From an uncultured Parasphingopyxis sp. (lineage in GTDB: Bacteria; Pseudomonadota; Alphaproteobacteria; Sphingomonadales; Sphingomonadaceae), in the NCBI GenBank assembly GCA_947259005.1, contig CAMYKP010000001.1, forward strand, positions 45,696 to 109,695: a stretch of 64,000 nucleotides of DNA. Reading direction: 5' to 3'. Below are positions 45,274 to 49,862 of the stretch, piece by piece. Position 1 is the stretch's first letter; each line of letters starts with the position of its first letter. The notes below the pieces were generated by a model. That model was not told where the DNA came from and did no database searches. It saw nothing but the letters and a program-made list of their open reading frames with translations. A program made the translations under genes and the position numbers.

Positions 45274-45361
45274 GGCTGGTGCCGGGCCGCGTTTCGGCAA
45301 AACTTGCTACAGCGACGGACTTGATGCACCATCCCGGCGCGCTTCCATGGGGAGAGGAGCC

Positions 45362-46156
45362 ATGAGCACCGGCGAACACGCCCAGATCGCACCGGCAACG
45401 GTCGCAAGCGATCTCAGATTAGCTGACCTTCGCGCCGCACTTGCTGCGGGATGGCGCGATTTCAGGACCTATCCCGCATTCGGCCTGTTTTTCGCTGCGA
45501 TTTATGTCGGCGCGGGAATGTTTCTCTATTTCGCCCTGTTTTCCCGGGGCGAGATCGGGTGGCTGGTTCCGGCAGCGGCGGGATTTCCGATCCTTGCGCC
45601 TTTTGTCGCCGTGGGGCTGTATGAAGTGAGCCGCCGCCGCGAAGCCGGACTGCCGATGAGCTGGGGGGCGATCCTTGGGGCATTACGGGGGCGCGGCGAC
45701 GACCAGATTTTGAGCATGGGCGTGATCGTGTTTGTCGCCTTCGCGTTCTGGCTGATGGTCGCGCACGGGATTTTCGCCATCTTCCTATCGGGATCGGGGA
45801 TGGGGACGGAATCGATCGAATTCCTGCGTACCGAAACCGGTATCATCATGCTGGCCGTGGGCAGTGTCGTAGGCGCGCTGATGGCGCTGGCCTTTTACGC
45901 GATCACTGTCGTCAGCCTGCCGATGCTGGTCGACCGCGATGTCGATTTCATCACCGCCATCATTGTGAGCCTGGCCACGATGCGATCGAACGGTTTCGTC
46001 CTGCTGGCCTGGGCCGTGATGATTGCGGTCGCGCTGTTCGTCGCCATGATCCCGCTGTTCCTGGGGCTACTTGTCGTGCTGCCCGTGCTCGGGCACGCAA
46101 CATGGCACCTGTATCGCCGCGCGGTCGACGAACGACCCGGTTCCGATGCGGAATAG
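45362..46156 (+). CDS. DUF2189-like membrane protein
   Basis: LRAALAAGWRDFRTYPAFGLFFAAIYVGAGMFLYF... LAPFVAVGLYEVSRRREAG. Confidence 0.83.
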   Translation: MSTGEHAQIAPATVASDLRLADLRAALAAGWRDFRTYPAFGLFFAAIYVGAGMFLYFALFSRGEIGWLVPAAAGFPILAPFVAVGLYEVSRRREAGLPMSWGAILGALRGRGDDQILSMGVIVFVAFAFWLMVAHGIFAIFLSGSGMGTESIEFLRTETGIIMLAVGSVVGALMALAFYAITVVSLPMLVDRDVDFITAIIVSLATMRSNGFVLLAWAVMIAVALFVAMIPLFLGLLVVLPVLGHATWHLYRRAVDERPGSDAE

Positions 46157-46206
46157 CTTTGCAGTCGTGCCCTCATTGCATCGAGAATAGACAGGTCTTG
46201 TCCCGG

Positions 46207-47748
46207 CTATTTTTTTACCAGCCAGCCATTGGGGCAGTAAGTCGCGTTGCGGCCGTAGAAATCGCATAACTCCGTGTCGATCCCATAGCTGTCCGGATGA
46301 CCGAGCAGGAAATCGCGGACCGCGCGGTTCGGTCCATCCTCATAGTCCCTGTAGCGCGGGGCTGGCAGGTCGGCGACGATACCGTCTTCGACAACGATAT
46401 AGTCGCCCGGCAGAAGATGGGGGTCGAAATAGTCGAGCACGGCCTTGACGCTTTCATAACTGTGCGCGCTGTCTTCAATAACAAGGATGGGATGCTTTGC
46501 CGCTGAGATCCGCGCATGCGGGAAAGTTTCGCCAGGCCGAGTGCTGTCTGCGGTAAAGAAAGAAACCTGTTCTATTGGTTCGGCTGGTTCGTGAATATCC
46601 ATAGTCAGGATTTCGGTATTGAGTCCCAGCGCATCGCTCATGTCTCGGAACCAGCAGGCGCTGCCGCCTTCGGATGCACCAACTTCAATGATGGTGCGCG
46701 GTGCGAGCCGCTGGAGCAATTGCAGATAGATGCCGAGATCAAACGGGTTTTTGAGGAATTTGCGCCCCTTGTAGCATGATCGCATCGTTCCGGACTGGAT
46801 CGTCGCCAGCAAGTCAGCGGGGATGTCGACGGCGAACTGCCTGTCGAAAACCGAGTAGGCTTGGCGTGTCGGTTCTGCTGTCGAACCACCAAATTTGCGC
46901 ATGAGCTTTTCGCTCAGACATCCGACATACTGCCTTTCATAGGGCGGCATGGAGAAAGGCTTGCCGTTCAAGGCTTTGTATTCCCCAAACATCGCCGCGC
47001 GGCCGGCTGGATTGCCACTCGTCGCGGCTCCACCGTGAATCTGGTGAAAAGTGCCTTCTCCGAGCACGGTCCAAGCCGTATTTCCGGATGCTTTGACAGC
47101 ACGCGCCCAGAAATCCAGATTGGCGATGCCGCCGCCAGGTTGCCTAAAACGTTCGTCGAGTCCGCCAACCTTCTTCCACAGCGCCCGGTCCAAGAAGACG
47201 CCATTCGATTCCTTCATGTCGCCGAACCAGCCCTCGCGCGACGAACCTGACAAGACCGCGATGTCAAACAGCGCATATCCATCTTCTTCCCAATGCGATG
47301 CATCGAGCAGCGCGTCTTCGACCTGTTGATCGTAACCGGTCTCTTTCGAACGCATCTGGACATCGGGGCCAAGATGGAAAGACATCGTGCCGATGATCTT
47401 GGTTGGATCATTGCGATAGGCTTGAAGTGCGGCGGCAATAATGCCGGGTGAGGCGAGGCGGGCGCCGTCGATGAACAGTGCAAGACAACAACTGGTGGCC
47501 GATTGCATCGCCATGTTGATCGCTCTGACTGGGGATGGATTGCCAGGTTCGAAGCGGACCACGCGCAGATTGGGCGCAATTCGCTGCAGGGCGTGTTCGT
47601 CGACGGCGACTGCCGACCCGTTGTCGACAACGATGATCTCATAGTCGTTCGCTTCAACGCCGCGCTGCATGGCGGGGGACAGCGAAAGGATCGTGCGGGG
47701 CAGTTCGCGGTCCATGTCAAAAGCGCAGACGAGAATGGTGAGCTGCAT
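46207..47748 (-). CDS. fusion: GT2-family glycosyltransferase + CmcI-type class I SAM methyltransferase/hydroxylase domain
   Basis: N-term LTILVCAFDMDRELPRTILSLSP...YEIIVVDNGS; C-term YKGRKFLKNPFDLGIYLQLLQRLAPRTIIEVGASEGGSACWF...GDYIVVEDGIV...GPNRAVRDFL. Confidence 0.8.
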   Translation of the reverse strand: MQLTILVCAFDMDRELPRTILSLSPAMQRGVEANDYEIIVVDNGSAVAVDEHALQRIAPNLRVVRFEPGNPSPVRAINMAMQSATSCCLALFIDGARLASPGIIAAALQAYRNDPTKIIGTMSFHLGPDVQMRSKETGYDQQVEDALLDASHWEEDGYALFDIAVLSGSSREGWFGDMKESNGVFLDRALWKKVGGLDERFRQPGGGIANLDFWARAVKASGNTAWTVLGEGTFHQIHGGAATSGNPAGRAAMFGEYKALNGKPFSMPPYERQYVGCLSEKLMRKFGGSTAEPTRQAYSVFDRQFAVDIPADLLATIQSGTMRSCYKGRKFLKNPFDLGIYLQLLQRLAPRTIIEVGASEGGSACWFRDMSDALGLNTEILTMDIHEPAEPIEQVSFFTADSTRPGETFPHARISAAKHPILVIEDSAHSYESVKAVLDYFDPHLLPGDYIVVEDGIVADLPAPRYRDYEDGPNRAVRDFLLGHPDSYGIDTELCDFYGRNATYCPNGWLVKK

Positions 47749-47762
47749 GTTCAGGTCCGCGC

Positions 47763-48995
47763 CTATATGCCAAGAACCCTGCAAATATGTTCCCGATCAG
47801 GCGAGTCTATCTCGCTTCTCGAAAGCAGGGATTTGGGCGGATCTGGTGCGTCGCTGAGCAATTGGCGAACCACGGGGTTGTACTTGTCCCATAACGTCCG
47901 GTTTTTCGGATCGAGATTGCGTACGATCAGCATACCGGTCGGACTTGTATCAAGGAGAGTTAACTGCAAATCGGGACGCCACTTGGTGAGTGTTTCGATA
48001 ATGCGCCAAACGTCGCCGCACCAGACGTTCGTCTCCCGCTTTCGCGAGGCTTGAGAGGGATGATTGGGAAGGACGTCATCGATAACAATGACCCCGCCTC
48101 GACCCATATAGCGTTCGAGGTTCATGAAATCCCGAAGCACGAACTCGACATGATGCATCCCGTCGATAAAGGCCAGATCGACCTTCTCCGAAATCGCGCT
48201 CTCGGCATGAAAAAAGAAGAAATCGTCACTTGTGCATTCGTAGAGTTCCACCGCATCCGCAACGTTTTTCAAGTCGGGCGCCGGATCAATCGCTATCGAT
48301 TGGCACGAAGCAATGGCAAGGCTGTTTCCCTTGCGGACACCGATCTCCAGATAGAAATCGGGTCGCATCAGATCGTGAATATCGGCGAGCACGTCCAAAT
48401 AAGGCCTCGATCCCTGCGTTTTTTCAGCAATGGCGCTGGGGGTATCGCTGATCCAGGGTAAGAACGCCGGCTGCGGCAAGGGAGCTGTCCGGGGCGATAC
48501 GGCACCGCCTTTCTGGAAAACGCCGACCAGGTCCCTCCATGGCCCGCGTTCGTCCAGCCAACAATGAACAAGCCGCAGGCCAGACCATTCGGCCAGCGCC
48601 TGAAAACCGTCGGGGTAAAAGCGATAGCAATCCACGGGATATCGGTGAATGGGGCCGGCCGATGGCGCGATGACAAAAGCCATGCCTTCAGTTTTCATGA
48701 CGCGTGCCATTTCGGTAAATACGCGCCAGAATTGCGCACTGTGTTCGAGCATCTGACCGGACAGGATCAGATCAAATTTTTCGTCATCAAAGGGAAGGGT
48801 ATTGGGATCTTCAAGAACGATGTCGACACCGGGTCCCGGAGCGAGGTCGATACCCGTATAATTGCCATGTTCTCCGAAAAAGTCTCGATAGGAGCCGTTC
48901 ACATCTGACGAACCAAGGTCGGCGACGTCGATCGGTCCGCCGGGGCAATACCAGTCGATGCATCTTTGCATATTTTCTAGTGAGGAATTGTGCAT
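47763..48995 (-). CDS. fusion of two class I SAM methyltransferase domains (type 11 + type 24)
   Basis: IDVADLGSSDVNGSYRDFFGEHGNYTGIDLAPG...LPFDDEKFDLILSGQMLEH; then FYLEIGVRKGNSLAIA...KVDLAFIDGMHHVEFVLRDFMNLERYMGRGGVIVIDDVLP. Confidence 0.8.
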   Translation of the reverse strand: MHNSSLENMQRCIDWYCPGGPIDVADLGSSDVNGSYRDFFGEHGNYTGIDLAPGPGVDIVLEDPNTLPFDDEKFDLILSGQMLEHSAQFWRVFTEMARVMKTEGMAFVIAPSAGPIHRYPVDCYRFYPDGFQALAEWSGLRLVHCWLDERGPWRDLVGVFQKGGAVSPRTAPLPQPAFLPWISDTPSAIAEKTQGSRPYLDVLADIHDLMRPDFYLEIGVRKGNSLAIASCQSIAIDPAPDLKNVADAVELYECTSDDFFFFHAESAISEKVDLAFIDGMHHVEFVLRDFMNLERYMGRGGVIVIDDVLPNHPSQASRKRETNVWCGDVWRIIETLTKWRPDLQLTLLDTSPTGMLIVRNLDPKNRTLWDKYNPVVRQLLSDAPDPPKSLLSRSEIDSPDREHICRVLGI

Positions 48996-49169
48996 GCTAT
49001 CCCGCAGGCAAAATCCGACCCTGCTTGCAGTTGCTGACCATGTCAAAGCCTCTGTTGAGCGACAGGTGTCAATGGACCGGGGCAAGCCATCTCACAAGGC
49101 TTGCCGGCGATGGTCAAACGACAATCTCGTCCAGCAGGATTGGATAGCCGGATGGGGCCACCGCCGCTC

Positions 49170-49862
49170 TTAATCCTGGCCGCAGGGTTCGATATCGCCA
49201 GGATCAGGACGCGGCCCGACCCGTTCGAACATCGCGAAATAGCCGCCTATGCCGGGCATGGCGCGGAAGACGACGCGTCGATAGCCGACAGCTTCGAATT
49301 CGCAGTTCAGCAGGTCCGGCGGGGTGCCATGCCGATTTGTGGGCCGGTCCGCATCGACGACAACGACCCGGCCATTCTCCCGGAGCGCAGGGCGCATGTG
49401 CCAGAGAAATTCATACGGGCTTTCGATCTCGTGATACATATGCACCATGAAAATCCGGTCGAAGCTGTCGGCTGGCAGCTTGGGATCGGCAAACTCGCCC
49501 AGCCTCACGCTGACATTGTCGAGCCGCTCGCGCGTGACGCGTTCGGCCAGCCTGTCGCGCGTTTCCGCGATTACATCCTGTGCCAGTACGCGGCCCGTCT
49601 CTCCAACGCGCGGGGCGAGGCGGATCGTGTAATAGCCGTTGCCTGCGCCGATATCGGCCACCGTCATGCCGGGCTCGATTTCAGCCATATCCATGACGGT
49701 TTCGGCTTCGTTGCGCTTGTCCCGCGTTTCCTCGTCAGAAAACTGGCTGGATATAATGTCGGAGACAGGCCGGTCGGCGGGCGGGAATCCGGATTCGTCA
49801 GAGCCCCCCAAAGCGTTGCAGCTTCCGGCAAACAGCAAGAGCAGGCACGCAGCACGGCGCAT
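49170..49862 (-). CDS. class I SAM-dependent methyltransferase with signal/lipoprotein-like N-terminus
   Basis: [53 protein letters not shown]. Confidence 0.85.
   Translation of the reverse strand: MRRAACLLLLFAGSCNALGGSDESGFPPADRPVSDIISSQFSDEETRDKRNEAETVMDMAEIEPGMTVADIGAGNGYYTIRLAPRVGETGRVLAQDVIAETRDRLAERVTRERLDNVSVRLGEFADPKLPADSFDRIFMVHMYHEIESPYEFLWHMRPALRENGRVVVVDADRPTNRHGTPPDLLNCEFEAVGYRRVVFRAMPGIGGYFAMFERVGPRPDPGDIEPCGQD

Follow-up and report, generated by a model that had tools for sequence, protein, structure and literature searches.

A conserved four-module unit of glycosyltransferase and methyltransferases in an inserted gene pair of Parasphingopyxis, with a candidate role in O-methylated deoxyhexose formation

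Analysis of a 64,000-nucleotide stretch of Parasphingopyxis DNA (hereafter the window) revealed a recent, horizontally acquired insertion that carries two adjacent genes for four protein modules: a GT2 glycosyltransferase (GT2) and a CmcI-type methyltransferase (CmcI) in the product of one gene (P0001), and a type-11 (M11) and a type-24 (M24) methyltransferase in that of the other (P0002). The four modules constitute a conserved unit that is present in many phyla and was not recognised in the first-pass annotation of this DNA. Our analysis suggests, at about even chances, that this cassette is a transferable rhamnosyltransferase with three O-methyltransferases, which would give a multiply O-methylated deoxyhexose on a surface glycan or glycolipid. 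Current annotation describes the proteins only as 'methyltransferase domain-containing' and 'CmcI family methyltransferase'; the four-module view offers a testable assignment.

The gene pair and its insertion

The host genome, a Parasphingopyxis draft, has 2.45 Mb and is 84% complete. The two minus-strand open reading frames reported earlier, about 14 bp apart, are both present (Table 1). If the ATG codons at 48995 and 47748 are taken as starts, P0001 begins 14 bp downstream of P0002, whose stop is at 47763. An upstream TTG at 47784 is an alternative start for P0001 and gives 525 aa. Both reading frames are intact with all invariant residues kept, and a simple scan found no sigma-70-type promoter for the pair. 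The locus had been placed between a DUF2189-like gene and the prfB block; the DUF2189 side stands, while on the other side a conserved gene not mentioned earlier (49170-49862) lies between the pair and prfB. This flanking gene is found in nine of ten Parasphingopyxis genomes. Its product, encoded next to prfB, carries a lipoprotein-type signal (LFAGSC), so that its SAM-type domain is predicted to lie outside the cytoplasm.

Table 1. Coordinates of the gene pair, its domains, the inserted segment and the flanking genes in the window
Feature	Coordinates	Strand	Details
GT2 glycosyltransferase + CmcI-type methyltransferase CDS (P0001)	46207..47748	-	513 aa from ATG
Tandem methyltransferase CDS (P0002)	47763..48995	-	410 aa, Methyltransf_11 + Methyltransf_24
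GT2 (GT-A fold) domain	46957..47742	-	Pfam PF13641/PF00535, homologue alignment, fold matches
RMNT_CmcI domain	46213..46773	-	PF04989, 94 bits; alignments to 2br3
Methyltransf_11 domain	48501..48995	-	PF08241, 49 bits
Methyltransf_24 domain	47841..48413	-	PF13578, 43 bits
DUF2189 membrane protein, flanking backbone gene	45347..46156	+	PF09955; aligned in congener G076
Class I methyltransferase-like protein, lipoprotein-type signal; flanking backbone gene	49170..49862	-	
Inserted segment	46132..49160	.	3,029 bp, GC 0.560; 63 bp instead in congener G076

The earlier view that the pair was inserted into otherwise syntenic sequence was borne out by a congeneric Parasphingopyxis genome (G076) whose site is empty: there, 63 bp take the place of the 3,029 bp (46132-49160) of the window, with 85% nucleotide identity on both sides of the insert. 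Rather than occurring at this position in all close relatives, the pair is absent there in relatives. Homologues of P0002 were found in four of the ten Parasphingopyxis genomes, in one of the four as two fragments. The lower GC that hand counts had suggested was confirmed: the insert has a GC of 0.560, while other 3-kb stretches of the window have 0.605 +/- 0.015 (z = -3.1), although one of these is also low (0.562). Codon usage, proposed as a further check, is atypical for P0002 (third lowest of 50 genes) and mildly so for P0001. Terminal repeats, a transposase or an integrase were not seen at the inserted segment.

In the tree, the window copy is placed next to Maricaulis (95/88), both belonging to a 10-row clade (100/100) that also contains Rhodobacter, and both congeneric copies (L051, L090) fall in a separate clade (96/95). 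Since the window copy stands apart from the congeneric copies, the cassette was acquired more than once in the genus. The case for transfer is strong because of the empty site; tree placement by itself is no proof.

Domains and active sites of the four modules

Pfam analysis supports both halves of P0001 as the GT2-CmcI fusion first described: Glyco_tranf_2_3/Glycos_transf_2 at residues 15-211, with 30.1 and 27.1 bits, just above the cut-offs, and RMNT_CmcI (PF04989) at residues 338-524, with 94.2 bits against a gathering cut-off of 23.2. The type-11 plus type-24 assignment of P0002 likewise holds (residues 51-107, 49 bits; residues 216-308, 43 bits). Structure prediction gave confident AlphaFold models of both fusions. 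The P0002 model is a compact di-domain (mean pLDDT 90.8, pTM 0.91) whose fold search returned class I methyltransferases; the P0001 model (mean pLDDT 89.7, pTM 0.64) has a low-confidence linker at residues 290-297. The fold search with P0001 returned CmcI for one half and, for the other, GT-A enzymes including chondroitin synthase (K4CP), the WrtF fucosyltransferase and the RmlT rhamnosyltransferase; since chondroitin synthase scores higher, the fold does not single out deoxyhexose transferases.

Alignments revealed conserved SAM-binding and metal-site residues in the CmcI and M24 modules. In the CmcI half, D427, E455 and D456 (numbering of alignment A3) correspond to D160, E186 and D187 of CmcI and are invariant in 12 two-domain homologues. 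PDB titles mention D160 of CmcI with Mg, and we take D160, E186 and D187 to be all three metal ligands. The acidic residues D278, D306 and D307 of M24 are invariant in 23 homologues and follow the same pattern as the CmcI metal site, which suggests that they are metal ligands as well. The invariant residues of M11 are D26, G28, D50, E84 and H85. The best and sole NCBIfam match of the CmcI half is rhamnosyl O-methyltransferase NF045824, at 68 bits and thus short of the equivalog cut-off of 400; no NCBIfam equivalog model covers P0001 or P0002. The solved sequence relatives of this half are the CmcI structures (2br3-5, 2bm8-9), labelled cephalosporin hydroxylase.

At the DXD position of the GT2 module, D-G-A-R was found in 20/20 aligned homologues (alignment A7), and the canonical DXD motif is absent. 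Alignment with K4CP puts its D-S-D-D at the same position. Because all 20 homologues carry D-G-A-R, the second Asp of the motif is lost across this GT2 family. Judged from these alignments, the module is probably a divergent GT2 for which Pfam membership stands and canonical DXD chemistry is not claimed; it may bind the nucleotide sugar in a different mode.

Distribution, genomic context and rhamnose genes

A homologue search with a concatenated-alignment query yielded 74 genome loci; a single-sequence P0001 query gave no matches. All four modules occur in one polypeptide in Amphritea pacifica (L049, 977 aa) and in a deltaproteobacterium (L091, 962 aa). The two-gene form of the window was found at eleven examined loci (L055, L056, L058, L059, L061, L063, L072, L075, L082, L110 and L010), an M11-M24-GT2 protein with a separate CmcI gene in Parasphingopyxis marina (L051) and Hyphomonas (L053), and a three-gene form in Nocardioides (L067, L071). 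Rhodobacter viridis JA737 is a cultured bacterium with the two-gene form. That the modules are fused and split differently across unrelated bacteria strongly supports a joint function: the four are one functional unit and probably act as one machine. CmcI is missing in many relatives; its step therefore seems optional, and three methylations would not be universal. Matches in viral contigs were mainly to M11-only relatives, and none of them was a full-length cassette. On an Acuticoccus plasmid (L012, 6977-8821), the GT2 subfamily occurs in a 614-aa fusion protein, annotated as hypothetical, whose C-terminal part is sulfotransferase-like by eye.

As first noted, no polysaccharide gene lies beside the window copy, sugar-nucleotide and transport genes included; roughly one in two of its closest relatives is likewise an orphan, so context does not point to the acceptor. 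At L055, L056, L061 and L062 the pair stands amid housekeeping genes (dCTP deaminase, TrkH, PhoB/PstB; BacA, LptB; pyridine-nucleotide-disulphide oxidoreductase, RpiA; MdoG, GlmM), so the orphan position is common for the family and not peculiar to this genome. A Pfam tally of 75 neighbours revealed no common partner family. Several ABC-like matches in the vicinity of relatives proved to be the housekeeping proteins PstB and LptB.

Other copies lie near rhamnose genes. On a plasmid of Rhodobacter sp. CZR27, a pair 60%/55% identical to that of the window, with its gene order preserved, immediately follows rmlC-rmlB-MT-rmlD-rmlA, with replication initiator, GDP-mannose-type, LPS-biosynthesis, Wzz-, sugar-transferase-type and sulfotransferase genes nearby; this plasmid is presumably similar to the rhamnose 'biofilm' plasmids known from roseobacters. 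In Sphingobium (L075) rmlA/D/B/C are adjacent, and in Parasphingopyxis L090 rml genes are close. Distant M11 relatives in Pseudomonas (L109, L119) are N-terminal domains of WbsX/RgpF rhamnan glycosyltransferases/synthases, encoded directly after rmlBDAC-wzm-wzt, with a Wzt that has a carbohydrate-binding domain (Wzt_C). M11 homologues at four loci (L109, L119, L105, L104) lie directly after or near rml-wzm-wzt.

RmlC (PF00908, a family that also covers other dTDP-sugar isomerases) was found in 39/39 cassette genomes tested (10 + 29, the 29 including L064 and L083, which have M11-M24 without a detected GT2). Among Alphaproteobacteria with genomes at least 90% complete, 154 of 289 (53%) have RmlC; all 18 alphaproteobacterial carriers are positive, a binomial probability of ~1e-5 if the genomes are taken as independent, with phylogeny and genome size ignored. 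Of two genomes without the cassette, G076 (complete) has no RmlC and G144 has it. The rml set of the host is complete, with rmlB, rmlD and rmlC on contig C6 and rmlA on C3. A second, GT2-only paralogue, 41% identical, is found in the host at G000:C3 127-136 kb (L019); with two or three sulfotransferase-like genes, a 1,112-aa TPR-GT2 protein and rmlA as neighbours, this is probably a sulfated glycan locus.

Proposed role, alternative readings and known systems

In the proposed mechanism, the GT2 module would attach a 6-deoxyhexose at the terminus of a surface glycan or glycolipid; the likeliest sugar is L-rhamnose, from dTDP-L-rhamnose supplied from elsewhere in the genome. The M11, M24 and CmcI modules would then O-methylate the added residue at up to three free hydroxyls, the product perhaps being a 2,3,4-tri-O-methyl rhamnose/deoxyhexose. 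A terminal deoxyhexose offers as many free hydroxyls as the cassette has methyltransferase modules, namely three, and in PGL-tb, Rv2956, Rv2955c and Rv2954c methylate positions 2, 4 and 3 of the terminal fucose sequentially (PMC3594219). We infer that the methyl groups go onto a sugar, that rhamnose is this sugar and that several are added, at a terminal position. The role first suggested for the pair, to modify a surface or secreted glycan, stays a suggestion; it has gained support from the rml-adjacent pairs, the co-occurrence with RmlC and the one-protein fusions. If correct, the assignment would yield a small enzymatic toolkit for preparing highly methylated sugars and point to an easy way for bacteria to alter their surface, namely through horizontal transfer. 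A bolder version, which we put forward as a rather doubtful one, is a mobile and self-contained capping synthase that places fully O-methylated rhamnose onto any suitable host surface glycan end without other cluster genes; such an enzyme would alter the host surface at once, for example in how readily glycan-degrading enzymes, phages or grazers attack it.

The chemistry would be unchanged if a protein such as flagellin, or a small lipid, took the place of a polysaccharide as acceptor. That the window copy and the copies at four other loci (L055, L056, L061, L062) stand alone between housekeeping genes suggests an acceptor widespread in hosts, and the mycobacterial analogues act on glycolipids (PMC3594219); however, the annotated plasmid homologue belongs to a polysaccharide region, its neighbours including genes of the LPS-biosynthesis, Wzz and sugar-transferase types, and we consider such an acceptor unlikely, if worth keeping in mind. 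It is far less plausible that the cassette gives an ABC-exported O-antigen a chain-terminating methyl cap for the carbohydrate-binding domain of Wzt to read. Methyl caps are known to act as signals for export (PMC9445017), the Pseudomonas M11 relatives directly follow rml-wzm-wzt genes with Wzt_C, and a KpsM-type permease lies 2.3 kb from the pair at L058. Neither P0001 nor P0002, however, has a kinase domain by Pfam, and Wzt_C (PF14524) is absent in 12/12 genomes, ten of them cassette carriers including the host (84% complete), which largely refutes a Wzt-read export cap in the tested hosts.

An activity of the oxygenase/hydroxylase type or in natural-product tailoring, in place of O-methylation, is also highly improbable for the CmcI and M24 modules. 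CmcI itself is annotated as a hydroxylase and its structures are the only solved sequence relatives of the CmcI half, but SAM-binding and metal residues are kept, the sole NCBIfam match of this half is a rhamnosyl O-methyltransferase, and there is no biosynthetic cluster nearby, with no cephamycin genes among the ORFs read near the pair. Intact frames, invariant residues kept and orphan copies recurring in several lineages argue against a stranded and functionless fragment of a larger polysaccharide cluster; this reading, to which the lack of sugar-nucleotide and transport genes nearby and of a sigma-70-type promoter in the simple scan would lend themselves, is very unlikely.

The CmcI half resembles CmcI (2br3, 2bm8) in fold, SAM-site pattern and metal-site residues; CmcI is a stand-alone enzyme of cephamycin biosynthesis, whereas in the cassette this domain is fused to GT2. 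Rhamnosyl O-methyltransferase (NF045824) has a related CmcI-type domain, the window protein scoring 68 against a cut-off of 400. In the part of the literature covered, no description of fusions of CmcI-type or rhamnosyl O-methyltransferases was found, and multi-module glycan assembly enzymes are already known (PMC3482155; PMC11231755). As in WbdD of E. coli O9a and ORF6-O7 of K. pneumoniae, a methyltransferase is fused to other glycan-assembly modules. Those proteins, however, methylate phosphate via a kinase module and serve ABC-exported O-antigens, WbdD and the A. aeolicus 3-O-methyl cap being examples of Wzt-read methyl caps, whereas the cassette has no kinase module and its tested hosts have no Wzt carbohydrate-binding domain. 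The Pseudomonas M11-WbsX-RgpF proteins (L109, L119) similarly carry a homologous M11 at the N-terminus of a multi-domain glycosyltransferase, but they lie inside rml-wzm-wzt clusters and have none of the M24, GT2 and CmcI modules of the cassette family. The PGL-tb set Rv2954c/Rv2955c/Rv2956 is alike in that one deoxyhexosyl transfer is followed by several O-methylations; the Rv genes are separate and belong to a lipid cluster, whereas the modules of the cassette are fused in pairs or in one protein.
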